Source: a virus | IMG/VR virus record: IMGVR_UViG_3300041411_000073 | Location: 1-29,459 of that record | Strand: one strand, 5' to 3' | Length of the DNA stretch: 29,459 nt | Shown here: one piece after another, positions 11,429-25,850 of the stretch | How positions within the stretch are numbered: position 1 is the stretch's first letter | Layout of the letters: each line of letters begins with the position of its first letter | The notes under the pieces: model-generated | Seen by the model: the letters and a program-made list of their open reading frames with translations, nothing else | The model's database searches: none | Told to the model about the DNA's origin: nothing | Made by a program: the position numbers and the translations under genes

Positions 11429-11621
11429 CAAGCACAGATCCTGGCGCGTAACCGTGCCGGGATACCGCCCATTCCTAATGGGTGGCGAGGAATACACGGA
11501 GGCTGAAGCGCGGCAAGCCGCTGCGCTGATCTGGCCTAAAGCAGAATTCAAAATTGAGCCGACATCGAGCCGGCCAACACAGGACAACCAGCATGACCGA
11601 CCAGAAAACCAAGGAACTTGA
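11418..11621 (+). CDS. small conserved phage protein, WRVTVPGY family (67 aa)
   Basis: The core SWRVTVPGYRPFLMGGEEYT followed by EARQAAALIWPKAEF matches a short family common in Pseudomonas and Burkholderia phages, with unknown function. The start is uncertain: TTG 11418 gives a family-sized protein and overlaps the previous stop, but has no clear ribosome site; ATG 11358 would add 20 residues that do not belong to the family core. The end overlaps the next gene by 29 bases. Confidence 0.55.
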   Translation: MKPDKHRSWRVTVPGYRPFLMGGEEYTEAEARQAAALIWPKAEFKIEPTSSRPTQDNQHDRPENQGT

Positions 11622-11832
11622 AGCGCTTGAAGCGATGCAGCAGCTGATCAACGATCTGCCAGAAGATCGCCGCCATCAGGTGCTGGTTTACAGCGAGGAC
11701 ATTCGCGACATCCTCAGCGAAGGATCTGGCGATGCCTTCCTGGCCCTCACGCTGGTAGCGTGCGAGTTCGCCGCCACCAATGCCCAGCTGGACAAGGAAG
11801 AAAAAGATAATGACCAGATCATCGCCGGATGA
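11593..11832 (+). CDS. hypothetical phage protein (79 aa)
   Basis: ATG 11593 starts a helical, acidic protein (MTDQKTKELEALEAMQQLIN, then EDRRHQVLVYSEDIRDIL and DAFLALTLVACEFAA). No family recognised. It overlaps the RusA gene by 23 bases, so expression of the two is linked. Confidence 0.6.
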   Translation: MTDQKTKELEALEAMQQLINDLPEDRRHQVLVYSEDIRDILSEGSGDAFLALTLVACEFAATNAQLDKEEKDNDQIIAG

Positions 11833-12262
11833 AATCCGCTTCACGGTTCCGGGCGAGCCGCAAGGCAAGGGGCGCGCCCGGGTTGGAACCATCGCCGGCA
11901 AAGCGCGGATGTTCACGCCAGCCAAGACCGTGGCTTATGAGGGATTGATTGCCATGGCTGCTCAGGAGGCCATGAATGGTTCTGAGCTGTTTGCTGGTCC
12001 GGTCATGGTTGAGGTGCTGATGCACTGCCCGATCCGGCCGAGCTGGAGCAAGAAGAAGCAGGCGCAGGCCATGGCCGGCGAGATCTACCCGACCAGCAAG
12101 CCCGATGCCGACAACTGCCTGAAGGCCGTATGCGACGCCCTGAACGGCGTTGCATGGAAGGACGACACCCAGGCCACCGACATTCACATGCGCAAGCGTT
12201 TTTCATCCACACCGAGGGTTGAAGTAATCCTCACCCCACTATCGAAAGCTGGCAGCAGCTGA
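11810..12262 (+). CDS. rusA: RusA-type Holliday junction resolvase (150 aa)
   Basis: RusA dimers cut Holliday junctions to resolve recombination intermediates and debranch phage DNA before packaging. Motifs visible: FTVPGEPQGKGRARV at residues 10-24 with the conserved Gly/Lys/Arg loop, then KPDADNCLKAVCDALNG with D99 and D101, and VAWKDDTQ with D118/D119. These match the catalytic Asp triad of E. coli RusA (D70, D72, D91). Start ATG 11810 follows AAGGAAGAAAAAG; the longer frame from 11780 is not needed. Length is slightly above E. coli RusA (120 aa), as is usual for phage copies. Confidence 0.88.
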   Translation: MTRSSPDEIRFTVPGEPQGKGRARVGTIAGKARMFTPAKTVAYEGLIAMAAQEAMNGSELFAGPVMVEVLMHCPIRPSWSKKKQAQAMAGEIYPTSKPDADNCLKAVCDALNGVAWKDDTQATDIHMRKRFSSTPRVEVILTPLSKAGSS

Positions 12263-12271
12263 GGAACAAAC

Positions 12272-12772
12272 GTGAATAAATCCTACATCGGCACCAAAGT
12301 AATTCTGGCTATGGCCATGACCCGACTTGCATACAACCAGTACCGAGGCTGGGAATTGCCATCCGACGAAGACGGCGCAGACGAAGGCTATTTGGTCGAG
12401 TACACCGACGGCGGCAAGCCAAACCACAAGGACCACACCGGATACATAAGCTGGTCGCCAAAGGAGCAGTTTGATAACGCCTACCGTCCAACCATCGGCA
12501 TGACCCTCGGCAAAGCTATTGAGGCGCTTAAACTTGGATATCGAGTTGCCCGCGCCGGCTGGAATGGCAAAGGCATGTGGCTCGTTCTTGATCCTGGTTC
12601 CACCGTCAGCGAAGTGCGAGAGGGCAGCGCGTACCACAAGGCTGGCGTCACCGGCTCGTTCACGATCAACCCGCACATCGACATGAAGACCGCGACCGGC
12701 GAAATGCAACCGGGCTGGCTTGCCAGTCAGACCGACATGCTCGCTGATGACTGGCAGATCGTAAGCGAGTAA
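12272..12772 (+). CDS. two-domain protein with C-terminal DUF2829 / Tad2-like anti-Thoeris domain (166 aa)
   Basis: GTG 12272 follows GAGGAAC. Residues 1-70 form a domain seen in other phage proteins (KVILAMAMTRLAYNQYRGW, then GYLVEYTDGGKPNHKDH and YISWSPKEQFDNAYR). Residues 77-166 match DUF2829: MTLGKAIEALKLGYRVARAG followed by WNGKGMWLVL, and near the end TGEMQPGWLASQTDMLADDW. Some DUF2829 proteins are Tad2, which binds the signalling nucleotide of Thoeris immunity (a gcADPR isomer) and so protects the phage. The ligand residues cannot be checked here. The gene lies between RusA and a strong terminator, a normal site for accessory genes. Confidence 0.75.
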   Translation: MNKSYIGTKVILAMAMTRLAYNQYRGWELPSDEDGADEGYLVEYTDGGKPNHKDHTGYISWSPKEQFDNAYRPTIGMTLGKAIEALKLGYRVARAGWNGKGMWLVLDPGSTVSEVREGSAYHKAGVTGSFTINPHIDMKTATGEMQPGWLASQTDMLADDWQIVSE

Positions 12773-12805: not shown

Positions 12806-12833
12806 CCCGGCCTACCTAAGCCGGGTTTTTTTT
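12806..12833 (+). terminator. strong rho-independent terminator
   Basis: CCCGGC (12806-12811) pairs with GCCGGG (12820-12825) around an 8-nt loop and is followed by eight T residues. It separates the early/middle genes from the promoter at 12843. Confidence 0.92.
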
Positions 12834-13340: not shown

Positions 13341-13636
13341 TGGTCAGTATTGGCGTTTTTGCCGTTGTATTAATCACGATTCACGCTTTCTGGTGCCTGC
13401 TATCACGCCGAGTCAGTGATGGGATAGTTGGCAAATTCCTATACCTGTTTCTGATTCTCGCCGCCCTTGGCGAGCTGAGCCGCCCCAACTCTCAGGTGGC
13501 GGATGCAGTCCTCTACTGCACATTCGCCGCCGTTGGCGTCAGGCACTGGTGGATGAAAACCATCTGGCCTCACGTCAGAATCTATATGATCAACAAAGTC
13601 CGTTGCGCCACCTGCCCCCACAAGGAGAAGCCCTAA
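13340..13636 (+). CDS. second holin-like membrane protein (98 aa)
   Basis: ATG 13340 overlaps the holin TAA by one base. Hydrophobic helices near residues 2-20 (VSIGVFAVVLITIHAFWCLL) and 31-46 (GKFLYLFLILAALGEL), and a weaker one near 55-68; the C-terminus is basic with CATCPHKEKP. Two adjacent membrane genes between promoter and terminase suggest holin plus antiholin or pinholin, but which is which cannot be told from sequence. Confidence 0.6.
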   Translation: MVSIGVFAVVLITIHAFWCLLSRRVSDGIVGKFLYLFLILAALGELSRPNSQVADAVLYCTFAAVGVRHWWMKTIWPHVRIYMINKVRCATCPHKEKP

Positions 13637-14154
13637 TGGCCACGCCATCCATGACGTTTGACGAGTTCGTCATTGCCCAAGGTTTAGTGTTCCGCGCAGA
13701 AATCGGCTATTCCGGCATCGGCGCCGCTGGCGTGGCTTATACCGGTATCACCACGGGCGCCGACGAGATCGCAGTCCTTCAGCGCGCCTATAGCAGCAGC
13801 GAAGCAACATTAACTGTTGAGTTATTTGAGGCGACCTTCACCGTCGGAAGCACTCCGCGCCTGCTCAACCGCCGACTGGCTAGCGCTCAAGTCTTGCCTG
13901 CCACCATCAAGCAGGGCGTTACACCGGGCGCACTAGGAACTGCCATTACTGGGGCGACATATCGCGCTGTCGTCAGCACTGGCCAGGCATCTGTCGCCGT
14001 TCCTGGCGATGACAGCCGCCTGTATCTGAAGGCGAACACCAGCTATGTCGTGCGCTATACCAACGACGGCGGCGGCACCGCGGCCATCACCAACGCCTTC
14101 GACTTCCGCAAGGTGCTGAAAGGTAACTGGGATGGCCTGCTGGTCAGTGCATAA
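13636..14154 (+). CDS. hypothetical phage protein, possibly virion-associated (172 aa)
   Basis: ATG 13636 overlaps the previous TAA; AAGGAGAAG lies upstream. The product is beta-rich and Thr/Ala/Gly-rich (MATPSMTFDEFVIAQGLVFR, GAAGVAYTGITTGADEIAVL, ITNAFDFRKVLKGNWDGLLV), as in small decoration or fibre-cap proteins. No family recognised. Position just before the terminase genes is compatible with a structural role. Confidence 0.55.
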   Translation: MATPSMTFDEFVIAQGLVFRAEIGYSGIGAAGVAYTGITTGADEIAVLQRAYSSSEATLTVELFEATFTVGSTPRLLNRRLASAQVLPATIKQGVTPGALGTAITGATYRAVVSTGQASVAVPGDDSRLYLKANTSYVVRYTNDGGGTAAITNAFDFRKVLKGNWDGLLVSA

Positions 14155-14163
14155 GCAAGGAAA

Positions 14164-14754
14164 ATGGGGATGACCTACGAACTACCGAAACGCTCAAAGA
14201 AGAACGAAGCCGGAGAGCCAACAGGCAAGCCGCGGCTGTTTTGCGAGTACTACATTTCCGACAATGGGTTGAACGGTGCGCTTGCAGCAAGGAAGGCCGG
14301 CTACTCAGCGCGCAGTTCTGGCGCCACAGCCTATCGTCTGATCAATGACCCTCTGTGCCAGACCTACATCGCCAAGCTGTCCAAGGAGCGTGCCGAGCGC
14401 CTCAAGGTTGATTCCGACTACGTGCTGCAACGCCTGTACGACATGGACCAGATGGACATCATCGACATCCTTAACGATGACATGAGCCTGAAGAACCTGA
14501 GCGAGTGGCCGAAGATCTGGCGCCAGTCCCTCAACGGCGTGGAGATCGCAGACCTGTTTGAAAGCGAAGGCGATGCACGCAAGGTCATGGGTGTGCTGAA
14601 GAAGATCAAGTGGATTGACCGCCTGAAAAACCTTGAGCTGCTGGGCAAGCACGTCGACGTCGGCGCATTCGCCGAGCGAGTCATCGAGGAAGATGCCGGC
14701 ACCCTGGCCAAGCGCCTTGCCGCCGCCCGTAAGCGCAGAGCTGAAAGCCAGTGA
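14164..14754 (+). CDS. terS: terminase small subunit (196 aa)
   Basis: The terminase small subunit binds phage DNA at the packaging start and recruits the large subunit. Family features: KPRLFCEYYISDNGLNGALA followed by ARKAGYSARSSGATAYRL, an N-terminal HTH, then a helical oligomerisation region (LKVDSDYVLQRLYDMDQMDI). C-terminus basic (AKRLAAARKRRAESQ), as needed for contact with DNA or the motor. ATG 14164 or 14170. The stop overlaps the large subunit start by 4 bases. Confidence 0.85.
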   Translation: MGMTYELPKRSKKNEAGEPTGKPRLFCEYYISDNGLNGALAARKAGYSARSSGATAYRLINDPLCQTYIAKLSKERAERLKVDSDYVLQRLYDMDQMDIIDILNDDMSLKNLSEWPKIWRQSLNGVEIADLFESEGDARKVMGVLKKIKWIDRLKNLELLGKHVDVGAFAERVIEEDAGTLAKRLAAARKRRAESQ

Positions 14755-16253
14755 CAGCCCTTGTCGAAATGAGTCGGCACGACCTTGAACTTGAGTTGAT
14801 CGAGGACATGGCCGGCTTCACTCACGATCCTGAAGGGTTTGCCTATTACGCATACCCGTGGGGAGTGGAAGGCACAGAGCTTGCTGAAGTCAAAGGACCG
14901 CGTGATTGGCAGCGGGAGAACCTGCAGATCATCGGCAAGCACCTGCAGAACCCCGAAACCCGCTTTCAGCCTTTGCGTATCGCCGTGGCGTCAGGTCACG
15001 GTATCGGAAAGTCTGCCGACATCAGCATGATCATCGACTGGGCTATGTCGACCTGCGAGGACTGCAAGATTGTCGTCACCGCAACCACCGAGAATCAGTT
15101 GCGCACCAAGACCTGGCCCGAGGTCGGAAAGTGGCGGCGCCTATCCATAACCGCGGATTGGTTCAACACCACGGCAACAGCCGTTTCCAGCAACGACAGC
15201 GAGCACACACGCAGCTGGCGCGCCGATGCAATCCCCTGGAGCGAACACAACACCGAGGCATTCGCCGGTCTGCACAACAAGGGCAAGCGCATCCTGCTGA
15301 TCTTCGACGAAGCATCAGGTATCGCTGACAAGGTGTGGGAAGTAGCAGAAGGCGCGCTGACGGACGAGAACACCGAAATCATTTGGATCGCTTTCGGGAA
15401 CCCGACCCTGAACACCGGGCGATTCGCCGAATGCTTTACCCGGTACCGGCACCGCTGGATCTGCCGGCAGATCGACAGCCGCACCGTTGAAGGCACCAAC
15501 AAAACAGAGATCGCCAAGTGGGCTGAAGACTTTGGCGAAGACTCCGACTTTTTCCGTATCCGCGTGCGCGGTGAATTCCCGAGGGCATCTGAATTGCAAC
15601 TTATCCCGCAGGATTGGGTGGCCGAGGCCCGCAAGCGTCCGGTCTACAGCACCATGCACGACGGTCTGGTCATGTCGATCGACATCGCCAGGGGCGGCGC
15701 CGACAACAATGTGATCCGCTTCCGGCGCGGCATGGACGCCCGGTCGATCAAGAAGCTGAAGATTCCGGGCAGCGAAACCCGCGACACCACAAAGTTCGCC
15801 ATGAAGGTCTGCACGCTGATTGATGAACACAACCCGGATGCCGTTTTCGTTGACAGCACGGGCGTTGGCGGACCAGTCGCGGACCAGATCCGCAAGCTGC
15901 GTCCAAATGCCAGCGTGATCGACATCAACTTTGGCTCAGGTTCCCCCGACCCGAAATTCCTGAACATGCGCACGTATATGTGGTGGCAGATGCGCGAGGC
16001 CCTGCGCGCCGGCTTGGCCATCGAGGATGACCCTGAACTGGAGCGCGAATTGACCGCGCCGAACTACAACACCGACGCCAAAGAAATTGTGCACCTTGAG
16101 AAAAAGAAGGAAATCAAGAAGCGCATCGGCATCAGCCCCGATGATGCGGACGCGCTTTGCCTGTCCTTCGCCATGCCGATCATGCGCCGAGAACACAAGG
16201 CCGGCACCAACAGCGACGGCGTGCAAACGGAGTTCGACCCCTATGCAAGCTGA
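14751..16253 (+). CDS. terL: terminase large subunit (500 aa)
   Basis: The ATPase-nuclease motor packages DNA into the procapsid. GTG 14751 overlaps the terS stop; ATG 14769 is an alternative. Walker A is SGHGIGKS (residues 81-88), Walker B ILLIFDEAS with D186/E187, and a coupling GNPTLNTGRF follows. The RNase H-like nuclease has D311 in MSIDIARGGADNN, D368 in VFVDSTGVGG and D467 in SPDDADAL, the usual acidic triad. Typical length and complete motifs predict an active protein. The last 11 bases overlap the GNAT gene. Confidence 0.93.
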   Translation: MTALVEMSRHDLELELIEDMAGFTHDPEGFAYYAYPWGVEGTELAEVKGPRDWQRENLQIIGKHLQNPETRFQPLRIAVASGHGIGKSADISMIIDWAMSTCEDCKIVVTATTENQLRTKTWPEVGKWRRLSITADWFNTTATAVSSNDSEHTRSWRADAIPWSEHNTEAFAGLHNKGKRILLIFDEASGIADKVWEVAEGALTDENTEIIWIAFGNPTLNTGRFAECFTRYRHRWICRQIDSRTVEGTNKTEIAKWAEDFGEDSDFFRIRVRGEFPRASELQLIPQDWVAEARKRPVYSTMHDGLVMSIDIARGGADNNVIRFRRGMDARSIKKLKIPGSETRDTTKFAMKVCTLIDEHNPDAVFVDSTGVGGPVADQIRKLRPNASVIDINFGSGSPDPKFLNMRTYMWWQMREALRAGLAIEDDPELERELTAPNYNTDAKEIVHLEKKKEIKKRIGISPDDADALCLSFAMPIMRREHKAGTNSDGVQTEFDPYAS

Positions 16254-16683
16254 CGCCATCGAGGTGAAGCCGTACCGCCCGGGCGACGGCGCGCTGATCC
16301 CGGTGGCCGAGGCCGACCCATTTGGGTTCTGGCTGCGCGAGATCGAATCGTCGGGGCGAGGCATGACCAGCTATTACAACGACGGCCTACTGGTCGCCGT
16401 GTCGTTTTACACGCTGGCTTGGGATGGCGTGGCCGACTCTTGCGCCCTGGTTAACCGATCCATCGCCAAAGGATGCGGCAAGGCCCTGGCTATGGCTGTG
16501 CGCCTGCGCATCAACGAACTGATGCAGAGCGACAGACTGCACCGCGTACAGGCAACCAGCGACGTCAGCGATCGCGTAAGTCAGGTATTCTTGCGTGCAA
16601 TCGGCTACCGATACGAATCGACCATGAAGCGCGGAGCCCCTGACGGCAGTGATCTTTTCGTTTACGCCCTACTTGGAGACTGA
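16243..16683 (+). CDS. GNAT-fold acyltransferase-like protein (146 aa)
   Basis: ATG 16243 lies in the last codons of terL in another frame. The protein has a GNAT-like order: N-terminal beta (AIEVKPYRPGDGALIPVAEA), a central strand (GLLVAVSFYTLAWDG), then KGCGKALAMAVRLRINEL, a possible acetyl-CoA loop, and QVFLRAIGYRYEST, the usual C-terminal N/S-x-x-x-x-x-x-GY motif. Substrate unknown. Its position between terminase and portal is found in several podoviruses, where such proteins may be virion or host-modifying enzymes. Confidence 0.6.
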   Translation: MQADAIEVKPYRPGDGALIPVAEADPFGFWLREIESSGRGMTSYYNDGLLVAVSFYTLAWDGVADSCALVNRSIAKGCGKALAMAVRLRINELMQSDRLHRVQATSDVSDRVSQVFLRAIGYRYESTMKRGAPDGSDLFVYALLGD

Positions 16684-16686
16684 GAT

Positions 16687-17034
16687 ATGAGCAAGAAAAT
16701 CAGAAAGACCGTCGCAAAATACGACCTCGGCCACCAGTACGGAAAAAAGATGGGCCTGCCTGATCCCAGTGGCGATTTGTTTTACGGTTCAGATCGAGCC
16801 CTGTCGCCTACAGAGGCAGCCGAGAAGGCGGCCAAGGACGCTGCAAAAGCGGCCGGATCAGCAGACACCCCCGAGGCTGTTCCAGTAGCAGTCAGCGATG
16901 ACACCATGGCCGCACGCGAAGCACAGAAGAAGCGCCAGCTCGCAGCGGCTGGGTTGTCCGGGACCATTCTCACCGGCTCGCAAGGCCTGTCGGCCCCAGC
17001 GTCCACATCCATGAAAAGCCTGCTGGGGAGTTAA
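16687..17034 (+). CDS. small conserved phage protein before the portal (115 aa)
   Basis: The N-terminus is basic (MSKKIRKTVAKYDLGHQYGK), the middle is an Ala/Glu-rich linker, and the C-terminus GTILTGSQGLSAPASTSMKS-LLG is a pattern I recall from small proteins located upstream of podovirus portal genes. Function not known; head assembly or portal placement is plausible. AGGAG-like ribosome site is not obvious; GGAGACTGAG precedes the ATG. Confidence 0.6.
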   Translation: MSKKIRKTVAKYDLGHQYGKKMGLPDPSGDLFYGSDRALSPTEAAEKAAKDAAKAAGSADTPEAVPVAVSDDTMAAREAQKKRQLAAAGLSGTILTGSQGLSAPASTSMKSLLGS

Positions 17035-17039
17035 TCCGA

Positions 17040-18764
17040 ATGGACGACAAAGGCAAAGGCCATAAAGGCAAGTACGCCGAACTTGAGCGCCTACAGAAGA
17101 AGGCCAACGCACTGGTCAATGAGCGAAATAAATCCTGGCTCCCGGTCTACAAAGACCTGCGCGCGTTTATCTCGCCCTACTCGGCACAGTTCGAAGGCGA
17201 CATCACCAACTCTGGCGAGCGCCGAGATCAGCGGATCAACAACCCGAAACCGATCCGATCCAGCGAGCGACTGTCGGCCGGCATGTCGAGCGGCATGTCG
17301 AGCAAGTCGCGGCCATGGTTTGAAGTGGTTCGCCCGAAAGACGCAAAAGACACTATGCCTGTACGCCGCTGGCTCTACGCGGTGCAAAGCGCCCTGCGCG
17401 TAACGCTGTCCAAGACCAACCTGTATGAATCGCTTGAGCAGGTTTACAACTCGCAAGGAATCTACGGCACGGCGGCCATGTCGTGCGTCCCGCATAAGGA
17501 CGAAGTGATTCGCTTCACCCATTACCCATGCGGCACCTACTGCCTGGACACCAACGACCAGGGCGACGTCGACACCTTCTATCGCTGCGAGCAAATGACG
17601 CCTCGGCAAATGGTGCAGAAGTTCGGCATTGAGAACGTATCGGCACAGACCAAAGCCGCCGCCGAGCGTGGCGACATTTCCCGCGTCACCGTGCATCACC
17701 TGATCGAGCCAAACCCGGACGCCGACATGCGCTACGTCGACAATCTGTCGATGGCCTACAAGTCGACCTATTGGGAATCCAATGCTGGCGGCGACAATTG
17801 CGGCATTCTCCGGCGCAGTGGCTTCAAGCAATTCCCGATCGCTGCCCCGCGCTGGCTGGTCACCGGCAACAACGTGTACGGAACCGGGCCCGGATACCAG
17901 GCACTGCCGAAGTCGCGCGAACTGCAAAAACTTGAGTCGGACAAAATGCGGCTGATCTCGCATCTGGCCAACCCAAACCGCACTGCTCCGGTCAGCCTCA
18001 AGGGCCTGGGCGGCGGATCGATCGTTCCGGGCGGCATCAACTGGGTGCCTGACAACCTGATCGGCATCGCCATGCAGCCGACCTATGTTCCTGACCCCAA
18101 CGCCATCGGCAACCTGCGCGCCGAGATCAACGAGTGCGAAACCGACATCGGCGAGGCTTTTTCCGAAGACCTGTTCCTGCTGATCACCAATCGTGATGCA
18201 ACGATGACCGCGTATGAGGTGGCTCAGTTGCAGGAAGAGAAGATCGCCATGCTTGGCCCAGTGATCGAGCGCAACGAAAAGGAATTGCTTGACCGCGTGA
18301 TCACGCTGACCTTTGACGCCATGGTTGAGCAGTCCATGCCGCATTGGATGGGCCTGCTACCCGGCGAGCCACTGTTACCGCCACCACCCGAAGAGCTTCA
18401 GGATATGAAGCTGGACGTCGGCTATATCAGCGTATTGGCCCAGGCTCAGAAATCCGTGGCCACCGCCTCGATCCAGCGAGCCGCGCAGTTCACCGGCATG
18501 CTGATGGGCGCCGGCTTCCAAGACGCTGGCGACAAGTTCAATCCTGACGCAGCCCAGGACGAATACTACGACGCCATTGGAGCGCCGCCGACGATCCTCC
18601 GCGGTGACGATGAGGTTGCCGCAATTCGTCAGCAGCGCGCCCAGGCTCAGCAGCAGCAGATGGCCATGGAGCAGGGCCAGGCGCTGGCGCAAGGTGCCAA
18701 GACCCTTTCCGAAACACCAACCGGTGGCGACACCGCGCTGAGTGCGCTGACCGGGGCCGAATGA
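17040..18764 (+). CDS. portal, head-to-tail connecting protein (574 aa)
   Basis: The portal is the dodecameric ring at one capsid vertex through which DNA passes. The protein fits the 'bacteriophage head to tail connecting protein' family: N-terminal helix then WLPVYKDLRAFISPYSAQF and RSSERLSAGMSSGMSSKSRP, GTAAMSCVP, a central stem (VTGNNVYGTGPGYQALPKSR), and a long C-terminal helix with Gln-rich tail (RAQAQQQQMAMEQGQALAQG). Length 574 aa is normal for this group. It lies directly upstream of the Bbp19, scaffold and capsid genes. Confidence 0.88.
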   Translation: MDDKGKGHKGKYAELERLQKKANALVNERNKSWLPVYKDLRAFISPYSAQFEGDITNSGERRDQRINNPKPIRSSERLSAGMSSGMSSKSRPWFEVVRPKDAKDTMPVRRWLYAVQSALRVTLSKTNLYESLEQVYNSQGIYGTAAMSCVPHKDEVIRFTHYPCGTYCLDTNDQGDVDTFYRCEQMTPRQMVQKFGIENVSAQTKAAAERGDISRVTVHHLIEPNPDADMRYVDNLSMAYKSTYWESNAGGDNCGILRRSGFKQFPIAAPRWLVTGNNVYGTGPGYQALPKSRELQKLESDKMRLISHLANPNRTAPVSLKGLGGGSIVPGGINWVPDNLIGIAMQPTYVPDPNAIGNLRAEINECETDIGEAFSEDLFLLITNRDATMTAYEVAQLQEEKIAMLGPVIERNEKELLDRVITLTFDAMVEQSMPHWMGLLPGEPLLPPPPEELQDMKLDVGYISVLAQAQKSVATASIQRAAQFTGMLMGAGFQDAGDKFNPDAAQDEYYDAIGAPPTILRGDDEVAAIRQQRAQAQQQQMAMEQGQALAQGAKTLSETPTGGDTALSALTGAE

Positions 18765-18765
18765 C

Positions 18766-19077
18766 ATGGATGATGAGCAGATTTTGAAGAATCAGGCCGA
18801 GGCAAGTAGACTCGCAGCCAGTCGCCTAAAGAGCGGTGCCCAGTACATGATGGGCAGCCGCTCAGGCCGCGCTCTGATGTGGCACTTGCTGGAGCAGTTC
18901 GGCGTATTCAACGAAGGCTTCAGTGACAACGCGCTGATCATGGCCAGATCATCCGGGCGCCGCTCTGCTGGCTTGCAACTGATGCAACTGATCGACACCT
19001 TCACGCCCGAGAAATACGCGAAGATGACCGAAGAAGCCCGCGAAGACGCAATCACAAACCCAATGGGGGAAGAGTAA
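18766..19077 (+). CDS. Bbp19 family protein (103 aa)
   Basis: The middle (SGRALMWHLLEQFGVFNEGF, then ARSSGRRSAGLQLMQLID) matches the Bbp19-like domain named after Bordetella phage BPP-1. It is small, helical and always near portal and scaffold genes. Role uncertain, probably head assembly. It starts one base after the portal stop. Confidence 0.75.
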   Translation: MDDEQILKNQAEASRLAASRLKSGAQYMMGSRSGRALMWHLLEQFGVFNEGFSDNALIMARSSGRRSAGLQLMQLIDTFTPEKYAKMTEEAREDAITNPMGEE

Positions 19078-19827
19078 ATGAGCATGTTCATCCACGGCCG
19101 ACTCGGCCACTACCTGCAAGAAGAGGCACCGGCCGATGGCGCTCCATCTGGCGCAGCGGAGCCCGCTCCCGCAGCAGCGCCGGCCGCAACCGATGCGCAA
19201 ACACCTGTAAACGTTGAGGCTTCCAGTCTTCTTGGCGACCTGAAACCTGACGCTAAAACCGATCTCGCTCCCACAGGAGAAAAGACGGACGAAGGCAAAG
19301 AAGGCGAAGAGGCCGAGAAGCCGCCCGAAGGCGCTCCCGAAGTTTACGAGGCATTCAAGGCCCCGGACGGCATTGAGCTTGACGAGTCTGTCATGCCGGA
19401 AATCTACGAGATCTTCAAGGATCTCGGCCTGCCGCAAGACAAGGCTCAGGAGATTTTCGAAAAGTTCCTGGGTATTCAGGAAAAACTGGCCGGCACGCCA
19501 GAGCAGCAAATGCAGCAGGCAGAAGAACAAATTGTCGCGCTCAATACGCGCCTTGCTGAAGAGTGCAAAAACCTGCCGGATATCGGCGGCGAAAAGTTCG
19601 GCGAATCGCTGGCTACCGCTTCGAAAGTTATGCAGCAGTTCGGCTCCCCTGAATTCCGCCAGTTGATTGCCTACACTGGCGTTGGCTCTCATCCTGAATT
19701 TTTCAAGATGATGGTTGCAATTGGCTCTAAGATGTCACCCGATAACTTTGTGCAAGGAGGCGAGCCGGCGAAGACTGAGCGCAGAGGCGAAGAAATCATG
19801 TTTGGCCACCTGTTCGAAAAGAAATGA
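19078..19827 (+). CDS. scaffolding protein (249 aa)
   Basis: ATG directly follows the previous TAA. N-terminal 100 residues are acidic, Pro/Ala-rich and disordered (APADGAPSGAAEPAPAAAPA), then a helical part (AQEIFEKFLGIQEKLAGTPE) and a conserved C-terminal globular end (FKMMVAIGSKMSPDNFVQGG). Acidic, disordered and helical sequence immediately before the capsid gene is typical for podovirus scaffold, which shapes the procapsid and leaves before maturation. Confidence 0.75.
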   Translation: MSMFIHGRLGHYLQEEAPADGAPSGAAEPAPAAAPAATDAQTPVNVEASSLLGDLKPDAKTDLAPTGEKTDEGKEGEEAEKPPEGAPEVYEAFKAPDGIELDESVMPEIYEIFKDLGLPQDKAQEIFEKFLGIQEKLAGTPEQQMQQAEEQIVALNTRLAEECKNLPDIGGEKFGESLATASKVMQQFGSPEFRQLIAYTGVGSHPEFFKMMVAIGSKMSPDNFVQGGEPAKTERRGEEIMFGHLFEKK

Positions 19828-19856
19828 ACACCCCACAAGTGAAGAGGATTTAAACC

Positions 19857-20861
19857 ATGGCATTGCTCTCTAGCGTATCGCTGACCCTGGCCGACTTGGC
19901 GAAACGCCAGGAAGGTACTGACGCCGGGAAGAAGATCGCGATGATTATCGAGATTCTTTCTCTGCAAAACGAAATGTTGCAGGACATCCCATGGATGCCA
20001 GGCAACGACGGCACCGGCCACAAGACCACCATCCGTTCGGGCCTGCCGACCGGTACCTGGCGCAAACTGAACTACGGTGTTCAACCTGAGAAGTCGACCA
20101 CCGTTCAGATCCGCGATCAGACCGGCATGCTGGAAACCTACTCTGAGATCGATAAAAAGCTGGTAGCGATCTCTCAGGACAAAGAAGGTTTCATGATGTC
20201 CGAGAGCCGCGCCTTCCTTGAAGGTATGTCTCAGAACATGGGCACCCAGCTGATCTATGGTGACGCTGCCGTAAACCCTGAGCGCATCACCGGCCTGGCG
20301 CCGCGCTTCAACAGCCTGTCGGCCGAGAACGGCGACAACATCATCGACTGTGGCGGCACCGGTTCCACCAACACTTCGATGTGGCTGATCGCATTTGGCG
20401 ATACCACCGTGCACGGTATCTTCCCGGCCGGCTCCGTCGGTGGCATTCACATCGGCGAAACCAAGGAAGAAACGCTGCTCGACAACCAGACCCCGCCTGG
20501 CAAGTACGAAGGCTACCGCACCCACTACAGCTGGGATGCCGGCCTGACCGTGCGTGACTGGCGTTACGTGGTACGCGCCGCCAACATCGACGTCACCCTG
20601 CTGAAGAAAGACGCAGCAACCGGCGCTGACCTGGTCGACATCATGGTTCAGATGCTTGAACTGCTGCCGAACGAAACCACCGGCACCCTGCGCTTCTACG
20701 TGCCGCGCGTTGTCCGTTCGTATCTGCGCCGCCAGATCAAGAACAGCAAAAACGTGTTCATCAACATGGGCGAAGTGGCGGGCAAGAAAGCCGTTATGTT
20801 TGATGACGTCCCAGTCCGTCGCATGGATGCGATCCTGTCCAACGAAGCCCGCGTGGTCTGA
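19857..20861 (+). CDS. major capsid protein, Bbp17/epsilon15 gp7-like (334 aa)
   Basis: ATG 19857 follows GAAGAGGATTT. At 334 aa it is the size of epsilon15 gp7 (335 aa). Typical segments: LTLADLAKRQEGTDAGKKIA, an N-arm, GTWRKLNYGVQPEKSTTVQI, and SWDAGLTVRDWRYVVRAANI, which fit an HK97-fold coat of this group. No cleaved delta domain is evident; the scaffold is separate. The gene sits between scaffold and cement, and a hairpin follows at 20868. Confidence 0.85.
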   Translation: MALLSSVSLTLADLAKRQEGTDAGKKIAMIIEILSLQNEMLQDIPWMPGNDGTGHKTTIRSGLPTGTWRKLNYGVQPEKSTTVQIRDQTGMLETYSEIDKKLVAISQDKEGFMMSESRAFLEGMSQNMGTQLIYGDAAVNPERITGLAPRFNSLSAENGDNIIDCGGTGSTNTSMWLIAFGDTTVHGIFPAGSVGGIHIGETKEETLLDNQTPPGKYEGYRTHYSWDAGLTVRDWRYVVRAANIDVTLLKKDAATGADLVDIMVQMLELLPNETTGTLRFYVPRVVRSYLRRQIKNSKNVFINMGEVAGKKAVMFDDVPVRRMDAILSNEARVV

Positions 20862-20867
20862 TCCAGC

Positions 20868-20887
20868 GCCGCCCAGCAATGGGCGGC
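20868..20887 (+). terminator. hairpin after the capsid gene (partial terminator or mRNA stabiliser)
   Basis: GCCGCCCA (20868-20875) pairs perfectly with TGGGCGGC (20880-20887) around a GCAA tetraloop. No U-run follows directly (ATGACCCTTTGC), so it is more likely an mRNA 3' stabiliser or attenuator than a full terminator. Confidence 0.5.
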
Positions 20888-20921
20888 ATGACCCTTTGCT
20901 TTCCATGATTGAGGAATAAAC

Positions 20922-21359
20922 ATGAGCATCATCGACCGCTTCCTGCAAGTCTCCAACAACCAAGCCATCACCGTGAACGCCGTATCCACGGACGTGATCG
21001 ACGCTGGCGCTACCAAAAACGCGGCCATTGGTCGTGACCTCGGCGGCGGCACCCAGCTGTTCATGGAAATTTGCGTAACCGCAACCATGACCGGCGCCGG
21101 CACCCTGGCCATTGCCCTGCAAGACTCCGCGGACAACTCCAGCTTTGCCGACGTTCTGACCTTGCCTCCGATTGCTTTCGGCAGCCTTGTGGTCGGCACT
21201 CGCCTGTATATCCCGCTGCCGGCCAAGATGCGCCGCTACATCCGCAACAACTACACCATCGCTTCCGGCCCATTCACCGGCGGCACCCTGAGCGCTCAAG
21301 TCGTCGACGGCATGACTGTTGAGCGCGCCTATCCTGATTCGCTGAGCAAAGTCGTTTAA
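20922..21359 (+). CDS. Bbp16 family capsid cement protein (145 aa)
   Basis: ATG 20922 follows TGAGGAAT. The protein matches the Bbp16 family: MSIIDRFLQVSNNQAITVNA, DAGATKNAAIGRDLGGGTQL, KMRRYIRNNYTIASGPFTGG. It is beta-rich. In BPP-1, Bbp16 binds the outer capsid surface and stabilises it, as the epsilon15 staple does. Placement just after the capsid gene agrees. Confidence 0.8.
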   Translation: MSIIDRFLQVSNNQAITVNAVSTDVIDAGATKNAAIGRDLGGGTQLFMEICVTATMTGAGTLAIALQDSADNSSFADVLTLPPIAFGSLVVGTRLYIPLPAKMRRYIRNNYTIASGPFTGGTLSAQVVDGMTVERAYPDSLSKVV

Positions 21360-21393
21360 TCGACTGGATCAGTTAACCGGTTAAGGAGTGGGG

Positions 21394-21828
21394 ATGATGG
21401 CTAAGAACGACGGCGGCACCGGCTTTATGGTGCGAGCAACACAGATGGGTTTTTTCGGATCGCTGCGCTTTGTCGGCGATAAGTTCAAGGTGAGCAACGA
21501 AGAAGCCTTTGCTGCAAATTGGATGGAACGCCTGGAGCCGAAAGAATCGGCAGCAGTGGAAAGCCAGTCGACAGATGTTGCCGGCCTGGACTTTACCGTT
21601 AAGCACGTACCGGCCGGTAACTGGGTCGTACTGAACAAGGAAGGCGAGCGCTTCAGTCGAGTGTTCAAGAAGGATGAAGGCAACGCCAAGGAACTGGCCG
21701 AGCAGGAAGCTCTTCGGCTGAACGCTGGCGGCACACCGGTTATGCCTGGGCCGAGTGGCGGGGGCGCTGTACCGCCCCTGCCAGTGGATGAAGAGGATGA
21801 TTCTGATCCGACCCTTCCAGACGCTTAA
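21394..21828 (+). CDS. hypothetical phage structural-region protein (144 aa)
   Basis: AAGGAG at 21383-21388 lies before ATG 21394 and ATG 21397 (the latter at best spacing). The N-terminal part (GFMVRATQMGFFGSLRFVGD, KFKVSNEEAFAANWMERL) resembles a small family placed between cement and tail adaptor genes. The C-terminus is Pro/Gly-rich then acidic (VDEEDDSDPTLPDA). Function unknown. Confidence 0.6.
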   Translation: MMAKNDGGTGFMVRATQMGFFGSLRFVGDKFKVSNEEAFAANWMERLEPKESAAVESQSTDVAGLDFTVKHVPAGNWVVLNKEGERFSRVFKKDEGNAKELAEQEALRLNAGGTPVMPGPSGGGAVPPLPVDEEDDSDPTLPDA

Positions 21829-21842
21829 TCCACTACCATGAC

Positions 21843-21864
21843 AGGGGCCGAAAGGCCCCTTTTC
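21843..21864 (+). terminator. rho-independent terminator within the structural operon
   Basis: AGGGGCC (21843-21849) pairs perfectly with GGCCCCT (21854-21860) around a GAAA tetraloop, followed by TTTC. It lies 15 bases after the stop at 21828 and 25 bases before the next ATG. It probably reduces transcription into the tail genes. Confidence 0.7.
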
Positions 21865-21888
21865 ATTTGCGCCGCTGGAGGACGCCCC

Positions 21889-22494
21889 ATGGCGAGCAAG
21901 ATCGAAATCTACAACATGGCCCTGTTTCACGTCGGCAGCACGTCGAAGGTGGCCAGCGACACCGAGCAGAGCATGGAACAAATTGTGTGCAGCACATTTT
22001 ATCCGACTGCTCTGGACGCCCTTCTGTCTTACAAGTCAACAGACTGGGGATTTGCCACCAAAAGCGTGGTGCTGGCTGACATCGGCAGTCCTCCGACGAA
22101 CTGGCTCTACCGCTACGCCTACCCTAACGATTGCGTGCGCGCCATCCAGATAGTCGTCCCGGGCACACGCAATCCAATGCAGGGCCAGCAGATCCCATAC
22201 GACTTGCAGCAAGGCGATTCCAGCCTGACGATCGTTACGGACATGCCAGAGGCTGAGCTGCTTTACATCGCCCGAGGCCTGCCAGCTGAGCGCCTGCCAT
22301 CGCCATTCGTCATGGCTCTTTCGTACCAGCTCGCCGCGCTGATCGCCGTACCGCTGAAGAAAGATCTCGCAACCAGTCAGGCGCTGATGCAGATCGCCGA
22401 GCAGATGACTCAGGTAGCGATGGCGTCCAGCCTCAACCAGCAGCAGCCGGACAACCCGCCGATCTCGATCTATGAAGCGGAGGCGCACGCATGA
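21889..22494 (+). CDS. tail adaptor / head-completion protein, T7 gp11-like (201 aa)
   Basis: ATG 21889 follows GGAGG-type site (CTGGAGGAC); the frame upstream runs through the terminator and is not used. Pattern MASKIEIYNMALFHVGSTSK, NWLYRYAYPNDCVRAIQIVV and ALSYQLAALIAVPLKKD matches the tail tubular protein A/adaptor group (T7 gp11, P22 gp4-like). These join the portal to the nozzle. ATGA overlap with the nozzle gene supports this. Confidence 0.75.
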   Translation: MASKIEIYNMALFHVGSTSKVASDTEQSMEQIVCSTFYPTALDALLSYKSTDWGFATKSVVLADIGSPPTNWLYRYAYPNDCVRAIQIVVPGTRNPMQGQQIPYDLQQGDSSLTIVTDMPEAELLYIARGLPAERLPSPFVMALSYQLAALIAVPLKKDLATSQALMQIAEQMTQVAMASSLNQQQPDNPPISIYEAEAHA

Positions 22495-24833
22495 CAACGA
22501 GCATTATTCAATCCAGCTTCAGCCGCGGCGAGATCGGGCCTCAGCTCTATGGGCGCGTGGACCTGGCCGCCTATCAGAACGGCCTGCGCCAGCTGAGCAA
22601 CTTCATCGTCACGCCCTATGGCGGATTCGTGAACCGTGCCGGCTCTTACTTCCTGTCGCAGACGCTGAACAACGAAGTTGCTCGCATGATCCGCTTCAAG
22701 TTCAACAACTCTGACGCCTACGCGCTTGAGTTCACGCACCTGGCCATGCGTGTCTATCGCAACGGCGGCCTGGTCCTGAACACTGCCGGCCCGAACATTG
22801 GCCTACCGTTCACGCTGGTGACGCCATTCACCCGAGACGAGCTTTTCTCCATCAACTTCACCCAGTCCGGTGACGTGATGGATATGGTCCACGTCAACCA
22901 CAAGCCACAAAAGTTGAAGCGCTTCGCCCACGATAACTGGACTATCGCGCCTGTTTCCCTGGTGCCGAGCGTGGCCGCGCCAGCCAGCGCCACAGCGACA
23001 ACACCTGGCGGTGGCACCGGCAACACTCAGGTCTGGCGCTATCAGGTCACAGCTGTACTGGACGATGGCAGCAATGCAATCGAAGAGTCACTGCCGGTTA
23101 CATCCAACAGCGTGACCGTGTTCAACAGCAACATCCAGGCGACGGTTACCTTTCCGGCAGTCGTCGGAGCGGCCTACTACAACATCTACAAGGACAACGC
23201 CGGGGCAGGAATTTATGGCTTTATCGGCCGGGCAACAGCTCTTACTTTCACCGATAACAACATCAATCCGACTAAGACCGACACGCCACCGACAGGCACG
23301 GATCCATTCATTGGAACCGGTAACTTCCCGCGCGCCGTAACCTACTACCAGCAGCGACTGGTCTACGCCTCAACCCTGAACAAGCCGCAAACTCTTTGGT
23401 TCAGCAAGACCGGCGTCTTCACGAACTTTGGTTACTCGACGCCACAGAAGGATGATGACGCTATCACTTGGTCGATGTTCAGCACCGAAGTGAATACCAT
23501 CATGCATATGGTTCCGCTGAAGTCACTGCTTCCTTTCACGGATGGCGCTGAATGGCTTATCCAGGGTTCTACCGCTGGCTTCACCGCCAAGACCATCAAT
23601 GGTGATGCCCAGTCCTACAATGGGATAGGGCAGCTCAGGCCGCTGCTAATCGGAACAAGCGTGGTTTACAACCAAGAGCGCGGCCGCGAAGTCACCGCAT
23701 TCGGCTACAGCTTGCAGGCCGACGGGTTCAGCGGAAGCACGATCAGCATCCTATCGCCGCATCTGATTGAGGATTACAGCCTGGTCGACTGGGATTATCA
23801 GAAAATCCCATATCACGTCATTTGGGCGGCGAGATCAGACGGCGCGGCCGTCACTTGCACCTACATCCCGGAGCAGGACGTTAACGGGTGGGCGCACCAG
23901 CACACAGACGGCGAATACCTTTCGATTTGCTGCGTACCAGAAGGTCGCGACGACTCGGTTTATGCGTGCGTGCAGCGCGTTATTAATGGCGCCACCAAGC
24001 ACTACGTCGAGCTGTTCGCCAACAGAATTCTGGACCGATACAACGGCACGGCCGTTATCAGACATTCCCATTTTGTTGACTGCGGCCTGGTCTACAACGG
24101 CACCAACACGACAGCAACCACGCTTACCGTCACTGGTGGTACAACCTGGCAATCGCCGGAACCCCTGACCGCCGTAGCATCTTCAGCGATATTTTCCGCG
24201 GGCGACGTCGGAGACATCCTCCAATACGTGCCAACACCGATCGCTGAGCCGTTCCGCTTCAAAATCCTGTCTTACACCAGCCCGACAGCGGTTCAGGTGC
24301 AGCCGCTTGGCGTTGTGCCTGCCGAGATCCGGGGCGCAGCCTTCACGCTTTGGGCATTCGCCCGCAACAGCTTCAGCGGACTCAGCCATCTGGAAGGAAA
24401 GATTGTTTCCGTCCTTGCAGATGGAAACGTGGCGCCTCAGCAAATTGTCACGGCCGGATCAATCACCATTCCAGATCCGTCGGCAATCGTGCACATCGGC
24501 CTGCCCTACCGGTCCATCGCTGAAACCCTGTCGATCAACATCGCCGGCCAGGAAACCCTTCTGGACAAAGGCGTGCAGGTGTCGAGCGTGGCGCTACTGG
24601 TGCGCGACACCCGCGGCGGGAAAGCTGGGGCCAAGGAAAGCGCCCTGTTCGAAATGAAGCAGCGCCAAACGAGCGACAACTACGGCAGCATTGCCGCCAT
24701 CAACGGGCTTGCAGAAGTGAGCATCAGTGACACCTGGGAGAACACTGGGCGATTCCTGATGGTTCAGGACGACCCCCTGCCGATGAACATCATTGCCGCC
24801 ATCCCGCGTGATGAGATTGGTGGGAAATTATGA
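22491..24833 (+). CDS. tail nozzle protein with fibronectin-III-like insert (780 aa)
   Basis: Nozzle proteins (T7 gp12-like) form the tip of the short tail tube. The start IQSSFSRGEIGPQLYGRVDL and SNFIVTPYGGFVNRAGSYFL are typical. Residues about 160-268 are a beta-sandwich insert with fibronectin-III features (VWRYQVTAVLDDGSNAIEES, AYYNIYKDNAGAGIYGFIGR). The rest is a beta-propeller-like body (NFPRAVTYYQQRLVYASTLN, TDGAEWLIQGSTAGFTAKTI). ATGA overlaps at both ends, so the tail genes are coupled. Confidence 0.82.
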   Translation: MTTSIIQSSFSRGEIGPQLYGRVDLAAYQNGLRQLSNFIVTPYGGFVNRAGSYFLSQTLNNEVARMIRFKFNNSDAYALEFTHLAMRVYRNGGLVLNTAGPNIGLPFTLVTPFTRDELFSINFTQSGDVMDMVHVNHKPQKLKRFAHDNWTIAPVSLVPSVAAPASATATTPGGGTGNTQVWRYQVTAVLDDGSNAIEESLPVTSNSVTVFNSNIQATVTFPAVVGAAYYNIYKDNAGAGIYGFIGRATALTFTDNNINPTKTDTPPTGTDPFIGTGNFPRAVTYYQQRLVYASTLNKPQTLWFSKTGVFTNFGYSTPQKDDDAITWSMFSTEVNTIMHMVPLKSLLPFTDGAEWLIQGSTAGFTAKTINGDAQSYNGIGQLRPLLIGTSVVYNQERGREVTAFGYSLQADGFSGSTISILSPHLIEDYSLVDWDYQKIPYHVIWAARSDGAAVTCTYIPEQDVNGWAHQHTDGEYLSICCVPEGRDDSVYACVQRVINGATKHYVELFANRILDRYNGTAVIRHSHFVDCGLVYNGTNTTATTLTVTGGTTWQSPEPLTAVASSAIFSAGDVGDILQYVPTPIAEPFRFKILSYTSPTAVQVQPLGVVPAEIRGAAFTLWAFARNSFSGLSHLEGKIVSVLADGNVAPQQIVTAGSITIPDPSAIVHIGLPYRSIAETLSINIAGQETLLDKGVQVSSVALLVRDTRGGKAGAKESALFEMKQRQTSDNYGSIAAINGLAEVSISDTWENTGRFLMVQDDPLPMNIIAAIPRDEIGGKL

Positions 24834-25291
24834 TTCACGTCAGACGCATGACCGCTGATGACATCGAGCCTATCGCCAGGGAGGCGCGACAGGCCGACCG
24901 TGACGAGATCGAAGAGGGTTGCGGTCAAACCATTGCTTCGGCCTTGGCTCTTGGTCTGCGCTCAAGCGTGGCGGCTCACGTCATCGTATGGGGAGATACG
25001 CCGCTGGCAGCCTTTGGTGACGTCAGTTACAGCCCTGGCGCCGGCATCGGTATCCCGTGGCTGATCAGCACGAACGCCATCGAGCAGCATCCGCGCGCCT
25101 TCCTGAGAATCTGTCAGCCGCTGGTGGCGCAGATGATGGAGCGGCACCAGACACTGGTGAATTACGTCGACACCCGAAACACCGCCGCCATCCGGTGGCT
25201 TGAGTGGCTGGGCTTTAGCATGGGCAGCCCTACGCCATACGGGCCAAAACAGCTACTATTTCGGCAATTCCAAATGACCAGGGGAAACTGA
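24830..25291 (+). CDS. T7 gp13-like GNAT-fold internal virion protein (153 aa)
   Basis: ATG 24830 overlaps the nozzle stop. The N-terminal MIHVRRMTADDIEPIAREAR and the C-terminal RNTAAIRWLEWLGFSMGSPT are the two ends of a GNAT fold, as in T7 gp13 (internal virion protein A, DUF2833). The place between nozzle and gp14-like gene is the same as in T7-type order. In T7 the protein is needed for virion morphogenesis. Enzymatic activity is unproven. Confidence 0.75.
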   Translation: MIHVRRMTADDIEPIAREARQADRDEIEEGCGQTIASALALGLRSSVAAHVIVWGDTPLAAFGDVSYSPGAGIGIPWLISTNAIEQHPRAFLRICQPLVAQMMERHQTLVNYVDTRNTAAIRWLEWLGFSMGSPTPYGPKQLLFRQFQMTRGN

Positions 25292-25292
25292 T

Positions 25293-25850
25293 ATGTGCTG
25301 GATGGCTTTGATTCCGTTAGCTGTCTCCGTAGCGGGCAGCATGATGCAGGGGCAACAGAAGTCGGCCGGCGACATTGGCCAGGCTTCTGCCCTCACCCAA
25401 AACGCTGCCTACCTCAACCGGGCGGCCAATGACGCGCGCTATCGTGGCGTTGTTGACGCAGATACGCAGCGCGTGCAGACGCAGAACATGATCGGCACCC
25501 AGCGCGCCGCCATGGCCGGAAACGGCGGCGTTGTCGACGAAGGCTCAAACGCCTTACTGCAGCAGGACGTCGCTCAATATGGCGAGCTGGACGCCATGAT
25601 CATCAGCAACAACGCGGCCCGCGAAGCCTACGGATATGAAACACAGGCAACCGGTAACCTGGCCAACGCCAGCACCCTGAAGAAGAACGCCAAAACCGGG
25701 ATGATGAGCTCGCTGCTTGGCGGCGTTGTCGGCGGCCTTGGCGGTGCATTTTCCAGCGGCATGTTCAGTGGTGGAGGGGGCGCCGGAGCCGGCACCAATG
25801 CCGCACTGGGCGGCGCCGCTCGCCTCAACTACAACCAAGCCATCGCTTAA
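25293..25850 (+). CDS. internal virion protein, T7 gp14-like (185 aa)
   Basis: ATG 25293 starts two bases after the previous stop. A hydrophobic N-terminus (MCWMALIPLAVSVAGSMMQG), a long helical Gln/Ala-rich middle (QTQNMIGTQRAAMAGNGGVV), and a Gly-rich C-terminus (LLGGVVGGLGGAFSSGMFSG) fit the gp14 class, which inserts into the outer membrane during ejection. Sequence identity within the class is low, so this rests on size, composition and order. Confidence 0.65.
   Translation: MCWMALIPLAVSVAGSMMQGQQKSAGDIGQASALTQNAAYLNRAANDARYRGVVDADTQRVQTQNMIGTQRAAMAGNGGVVDEGSNALLQQDVAQYGELDAMIISNNAAREAYGYETQATGNLANASTLKKNAKTGMMSSLLGGVVGGLGGAFSSGMFSGGGGAGAGTNAALGGAARLNYNQAIA

Follow-up and report, generated by a model that had tools for sequence, protein, structure and literature searches.

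Four kinds of phage antagonist of bacterial immune signals are already known that bear on the gene described here: Tad2, Tad1, Acb2, and the RyR-type proteins. A review places the gcADPR pocket of Tad2 in the β1-β2, β3-β4, and β4-α3 loops, strand β4, and helix α3, and its dinucleotide site in an insertion between β2 and β5; the assemblies given there are tetramers for Tad2 and hexamers for Tad1 and Acb2 (PMC12043709). 3'3'-cGAMP is not a ligand of SPO1 Tad2 (PMC11722364), and in the PDB the Spt and Hgm proteins are found with cGG and ModTad2 with hisADPR. With regard to the RyR-type group (RyDEP), phage proteins with an RyR domain are reported in a 2026 preprint to sequester 2'cADPR and 3'cADPR or break them down and to overcome Thoeris, some members of the family being enzymes; R12-like domains were purified in that work, and one tested homologue came from a Pectobacterium phage (PMC13232231).

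The protein presented here probably belongs with these antagonists, and it differs from every solved Tad2 chain by carrying a 72-residue domain in front of the Tad2-like part. It is encoded in a 29.5-kb virus record, referred to below as the window, and the coordinates of its features are collected in Table 1.

Table 1. Features of the locus, numbered from the first base of the window.
Feature	Coordinates	Strand	Basis or remark
RusA-type Holliday junction resolvase	11780..12262	+	PF05866, 2.3e-35; ends 9 bases upstream of the gene
Shine-Dalgarno-like GAGGAA	12261..12266	+	5 bases 5' of the start; overlaps the RusA stop codon
CDS, 166 aa, N-domain plus Tad2-like domain	12272..12772	+	GTG start; Pfam, phrog, codon pattern
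N-domain (residues 1-72), β-α-β-β-α	12272..12487	+	AF2, partner survey; no Pfam family
GYLVEY strand, conserved N-domain core	12386..12403	+	Alignments
N-domain signature YISWSPK (S62 and P63 unchanged in every partner class)	12443..12463	+	Alignments
Tad2-like domain (residues 77-164)	12500..12763	+	PF11195; PDB sequence and fold matches
WNGKG, the β1-β2 loop in Tad2; lines the gcADPR pocket according to the review cited above	12560..12574	+	Alignment with SPO1, Mod, Spt, and Hgm Tad2
WLASQTDMLADDW (residues 149-161), β4-α3 loop and helix α3, reported to line the pocket	12716..12754	+	Same four-Tad2 alignment
Intrinsic-terminator-like stem, then T8	12806..12825	+	33 bases 3' of the stop codon

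The open reading frame is a real gene, because it is preceded by a ribosome site and its differences from close relatives are mostly synonymous. Compared with two relatives that are 84-86% identical (L012 and L014), there are 49 synonymous and 24 nonsynonymous codon differences in one case and 54 and 28 in the other, and they concentrate at third codon positions. The terminator-like stem says little by itself, since one was found against a mean of 2.0 in shuffled sequence.

As for the virus, the terminase shows a distant likeness to its counterpart in podophage epsilon15 (75% over 625 bases), and this short stretch was the sole DNA match to window positions 13500-25500 among 50,697 phage records. 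With similarity so limited, the window is, judged by its DNA, a member of a poorly sampled podophage group. The nearest bacterial-genome matches of the N-domain are in Pseudomonas, which suggests a Pseudomonas-like host. The gene stands among recombination genes here and occupies various other positions in other phages; a conserved synteny with RusA was considered and rejected, RusA being adjacent in 2 of 164 loci. Upstream of RusA, a 92-aa ORF (window 11554-11832) gave a subthreshold match to Acb1 (E 0.039, 14.1 bits vs a cut-off of 27), probably by chance. PADLOC and NCBIfam returned no useful match.

A sequence-only reading of this DNA had proposed that the C-terminal half carries DUF2829 blocks and is Tad2-like, and both points hold. 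The blocks are VARAGWNGKGMW at residues 92-103 and WLASQTDMLADDW, and PF11195 matches over its whole length (profile positions 1-73 of 73) with an E-value of 5.6e-26 and 91.3 bits, the cut-off being 25. The solved chains of SptTad2, HgmTad2/AcrIIA7, ModTad2, and SPO1 Tad2 are matched by phmmer with E-values from 2.6e-16 (SptTad2) to 1.1e-11, and a 61-sequence profile reaches solved Tad2 at up to 4.5e-26. The AlphaFold (AF2) model of the whole chain, a monomer of two domains (pLDDT 92.4, pTM 0.65), was paired by Foldseek with 24 Tad2 chains at probability 1.00 and target TM scores of 0.67-0.87, those for ModTad2 being 0.81-0.87. By profile and by the predicted monomer fold, this half is thus a member of the Tad2 family (PF11195); alone, at the locus as first reported, it would be ordinary.

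Which ligand might such a domain hold? WNGKGM and WLASQTDMLADDW are kept in the alignment with the four solved Tad2 proteins and, because the review cited above puts the β1-β2 loop and the β4-α3 loop with helix α3 in the pocket, both would be pocket-lining. The putative pocket loops, whose residues the earlier reading had singled out for checking, are in place at the level of sequence blocks. Counted from the Arg that precedes WNGKG as far as the Trp block at the C-terminus, the stretch has 55 residues in the window protein; SPO1 and Mod have 51, Spt 63, and Hgm 69. At 55 residues, the long β2-β5 insertion of the subgroup that binds cyclic dinucleotides (Hgm and Spt) is absent. Since the loop is short, as in SPO1 and Myroides Tad2, and not long as in Spt and Hgm, the signal loop comes closer to the ADP-ribose-type members than to the dinucleotide binders, and an ADP-ribose-type ligand appears likelier than a cyclic dinucleotide.

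The same reading had presented the gene as a fusion with another domain, and this needs to be qualified: two domains are indeed joined in one ORF, but the arrangement is not unusual. The fusion itself is not new, because a single family, phrog_872, extends over the full length of the two domains (E 5.2e-59), annotated phages encode the same architecture, N4 gp49, phiAH14a, and Vibrio crassostreae phages among them, and relatives are encoded on over 580 IMG/VR stretches; 89 annotated phage records contain 80% or more of the query. Gp49 of E. coli phage N4 has the same two-domain order over its full length and differs by sequence divergence only (43% identity), and phrog_872 is listed as of unknown function. 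On these profile and sequence matches, the fusion is a widespread family, known but unnamed, in which the linker between the two domains has a median of 0 residues by profile edges.

The neighbors of such genes also deserve mention. Of 178 genes for the two-domain protein, 39 have a gp49_66 gene directly next to them, against 7 cases in which it lies nonadjacent in the same flanks; the stop and start codons of the paired genes often overlap by 4 bases, and N4 gp48-gp49 is an adjacent pair of this kind. PF13876, named "N4 Gp49/Sf6 gene 66", matches N4 gp48 (8.8e-35; EF056009, L001:2606-2977) rather than gp49, and a label taken over from this family can therefore be wrong for gp49, the protein with the N-domain and Tad2. 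The name had led to the guess that the N-domain is PF13876; this was rejected, since Phage_gp49_66 matches neither the N-domain nor any other part of the window, and it is in other loci that it occurs, as a neighbor or a fusion partner. In Vibrio phage 1.205.O, crAss001_48 and Tad2 are joined in one gene and the N-domain is encoded by the next, and genes for an Acb2/Tad1 hairpin or for Tad2 lie near N-domain genes at three further loci (L389, L293, and L246).

The N-terminal part had been read as a separate domain of about 70 residues outside standard Tad2, and this is what was found: with the threshold relaxed to E 10, Pfam still yields nothing for residues 1-72, and AF2 folds them on their own, in the topology given in Table 1, with a pLDDT of 95.2. 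Against the PDB there was no sequence match and no Foldseek match with an E-value below 1.8. Two other identities were tried and set aside. One was the β domain of Tad1: a search of the PDB with the N-domain profile gave no Tad1 chain, and in one protein (L381) an entire Tad1 follows the N-domain. The other was a distant Tad2 paralogue, suggested by look-alike motifs, for which the hhalign probability is about 0 and the Foldseek match to SPO1 Tad2 reaches only E 5.9-7.1. Five residues (K9, G39, Y44, S62, and P63) are invariant over all partner classes in an alignment whose L384 row is poorly aligned, and A13, Y40, V42, Y58, S60, W61, and F67 are kept in at least 90% of it. No description of the domain was found in the open literature, a search outside of which several key sponge papers fall. 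As far as was checked, therefore, the N-domain is a new shared module, attached to antagonists that are themselves already known.

The sequence-only reading had missed that this domain likewise stands in front of Tad1, Acb2, and RyR-type anti-Thoeris proteins. Loci were gathered in several scans and 303 distinct ORFs were classified, giving 205 with TAD2, 33 with crAss001_48, 18 with gp49_66, and 17 of Tad1 type, plus mixtures; these counts are biased, as some queries carried a particular partner. When GTDB genomes were searched with the N-domain only, the 70 distinct ORFs comprised TAD2 (31), gp49_66 (15), crAss001_48 (11), the N-domain alone (8), Tad1-type (4), and TAD2 with crAss001_48 (1), with no other partner. 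The same query in IMG/VR gave Tad2 34 times, crAss001_48 12 times, and others twice. Proteins of three parts, with the N-domain, Tad2, and crAss001_48 together, are present at L081, L292, and L384.

The Tad1 case is clear: residues 69-180 of L381 match Tad1 (8kbb) at 3e-34, an anti-Thoeris sponge whose fold is unrelated to Tad2. In some Tad1-type proteins (L239, L180, L207, and similar), the N-domain is separated from the hairpin by an additional variable segment. In Caulobacter phage RapA, gp016 joins the N-domain, in a copy that carries insertions, to a C-terminus of the anti-CBASS sponge type, a helical hairpin without Tad2 that matches the Acb2 family PF24729 at 4.5e-17 and, weakly, p26 and Vs.4. 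When the N-domain model was used for a structure search, an RyR-domain protein of Yersinia phage TG1 was retrieved, and PF02026, again with a fold unrelated to Tad2, follows the N-domain in this phage, in Pectobacterium phage CB3, and in E. coli phage 4HA13. The whole protein with both parts is present in 14 records; in many other phages, the match begins only at residue 73-74.

Outside the GTDB scan with the N-domain only, there is a minority of partners that are neither sponges nor crAss001_48 or gp49_66. These include two uncharacterized modules without a Pfam family, one with the motif "YAWSWHCNIAM" (L173, L252, and L004) and one with "HLPPHLQEVS" (L003 and L005), as well as L321 and others. 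In the record of Klebsiella phage K17alpha62 (L010), the region that contains an ORF for the N-domain with crAss001_48 is labeled a virion RNA polymerase pseudogene, probably by an annotation error; a scan with the L010 protein supplied one relative. The idea that crAss001_48 is a disguised Acb2/Tad1 hairpin found no support in profile comparison. Neither crAss001_48 nor gp49_66 shows likeness to the hairpin or Tad2 profiles compared and both are uncharacterized, so to state that the partners are always sponges goes beyond the evidence.

How freely are the partners exchanged? On the N-domain tree, a weak one of about 70 columns, there are at least 47 partner changes vs 58.6 with shuffled labels, a faint sign that partners track ancestry slightly and switch often. 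The weak correlation of identity between the N-domain and the C-terminal part says little about domain shuffling, because the two halves of the N-domain themselves correlate only at 0.21.

Taken together, the best explanation, to which we give a probability of about 70%, is that the gene encodes a phage anti-defense sponge, more probably for an ADP-ribose-type ligand, with an accessory N-domain. The anti-defense role proposed earlier remains the likeliest function on homology. The Tad2 half would most likely assemble into an oligomer, as characterized Tad2 proteins do, and would capture the nucleotide alarm signal of a bacterial TIR-type (Thoeris) system; with the signal captured, the effector would stay off. 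What, then, might the N-domain add? We infer that it is an accessory shared among sponges, a binding module. That it brings the sponge to a common partner is close to an even bet; that it supplies a small-molecule site of its own is somewhat unlikely; and that it only aids folding, expression, or assembly is unlikely.

The strongest competing explanation makes the N-domain a second signal-binding domain, so that the protein would be a two-site sponge taking two kinds of alarm molecule at once. Its compact core of polar and aromatic residues is strongly conserved across partner classes, in the proteins with Tad2 it is more conserved than its partner (mean pairwise identity of 65% vs 52%), and the characterized partners in the genome scan with the N-domain only are all signal handlers. 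However, such conservation fits protein binding equally, there is no solved homologue or ligand, and Foldseek returned no nucleotide-binding relative. In addition, the short Firmicutes form of the domain, of about 45-50 residues (L400), is small for an independent pocket unless it is oligomeric. On balance we regard this explanation as unlikely.

Less probable still is a passive recombination cassette, by which phages would swap cargo at shared 5' ends and the N-domain would aid expression, solubility, or assembly only. The 8 solitary copies among the 70 GTDB ORFs, the many partner changes on the tree, and the direct junctions with Tad2 are what one would expect from it. A cassette would nevertheless gather random partners, and in the scan with the N-domain only the identifiable ones are Tad2, Tad1-type, crAss001_48, and gp49_66: a set of signal handlers and two uncharacterized modules that argues against a mere cassette. 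The core residues are also kept over distant phages. Nor does a shared oligomerization device fit well with the varied folds and assemblies of the partners, and a single such aid would be awkward for the tetramers of Tad2 and the hexamers of Tad1 and Acb2.

That the protein is mainly an anti-CRISPR of the AcrIIA7 kind, and not an anti-Thoeris sponge, is very unlikely. AcrIIA7 (9kzr) does match in sequence at 6.6e-14, HgmTad2 was deposited as a type II CRISPR inhibitor, and homologues are named "anti-CRISPR protein" in several phage records. The same chains, though, were solved with 1',2'-cADPR and cGG (8kbj, 8kbk), and the other characterized partners of the N-domain act on nucleotide signals, not on Cas9. 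Highly improbable, finally, is a nucleotide role in phage or host metabolism unrelated to defense, to which the placement of the gene, among recombination genes here and at differing places in other phages, would be congenial, since the pocket loops are conserved with proven sponges and the N-domain is common to three other signal-neutralizing families.

The reading of the gene as an anti-defense sponge with an accessory domain leads to a broader question. The N-domain is attached to at least four unrelated alarm-blocking families, and it could thus serve widely as a functional component of phage counter-defense. We put forward tentatively, at rather less than even odds, that it is a general counter-defense module giving unrelated sponges (Tad1, Tad2, Acb2, and RyR-type) a common function, in which case crAss001_48 and gp49_66 would be new immune-signal antagonists. 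That function, in an equally tentative proposal, might be a signal site of its own, or attachment to a host or phage factor that the sponges have in common and that is located where the signals arise.

The partner rule makes the question of the N-domain testable, with small proteins and standard assays. If the domain is a working part, four anti-defense families that were discovered separately and have no common fold would become linked. It would also serve as a sequence handle: proteins in which it precedes an uncharacterized C-terminus, together with gp49_66 and crAss001_48, would become candidates for further antagonists of bacterial immunity.
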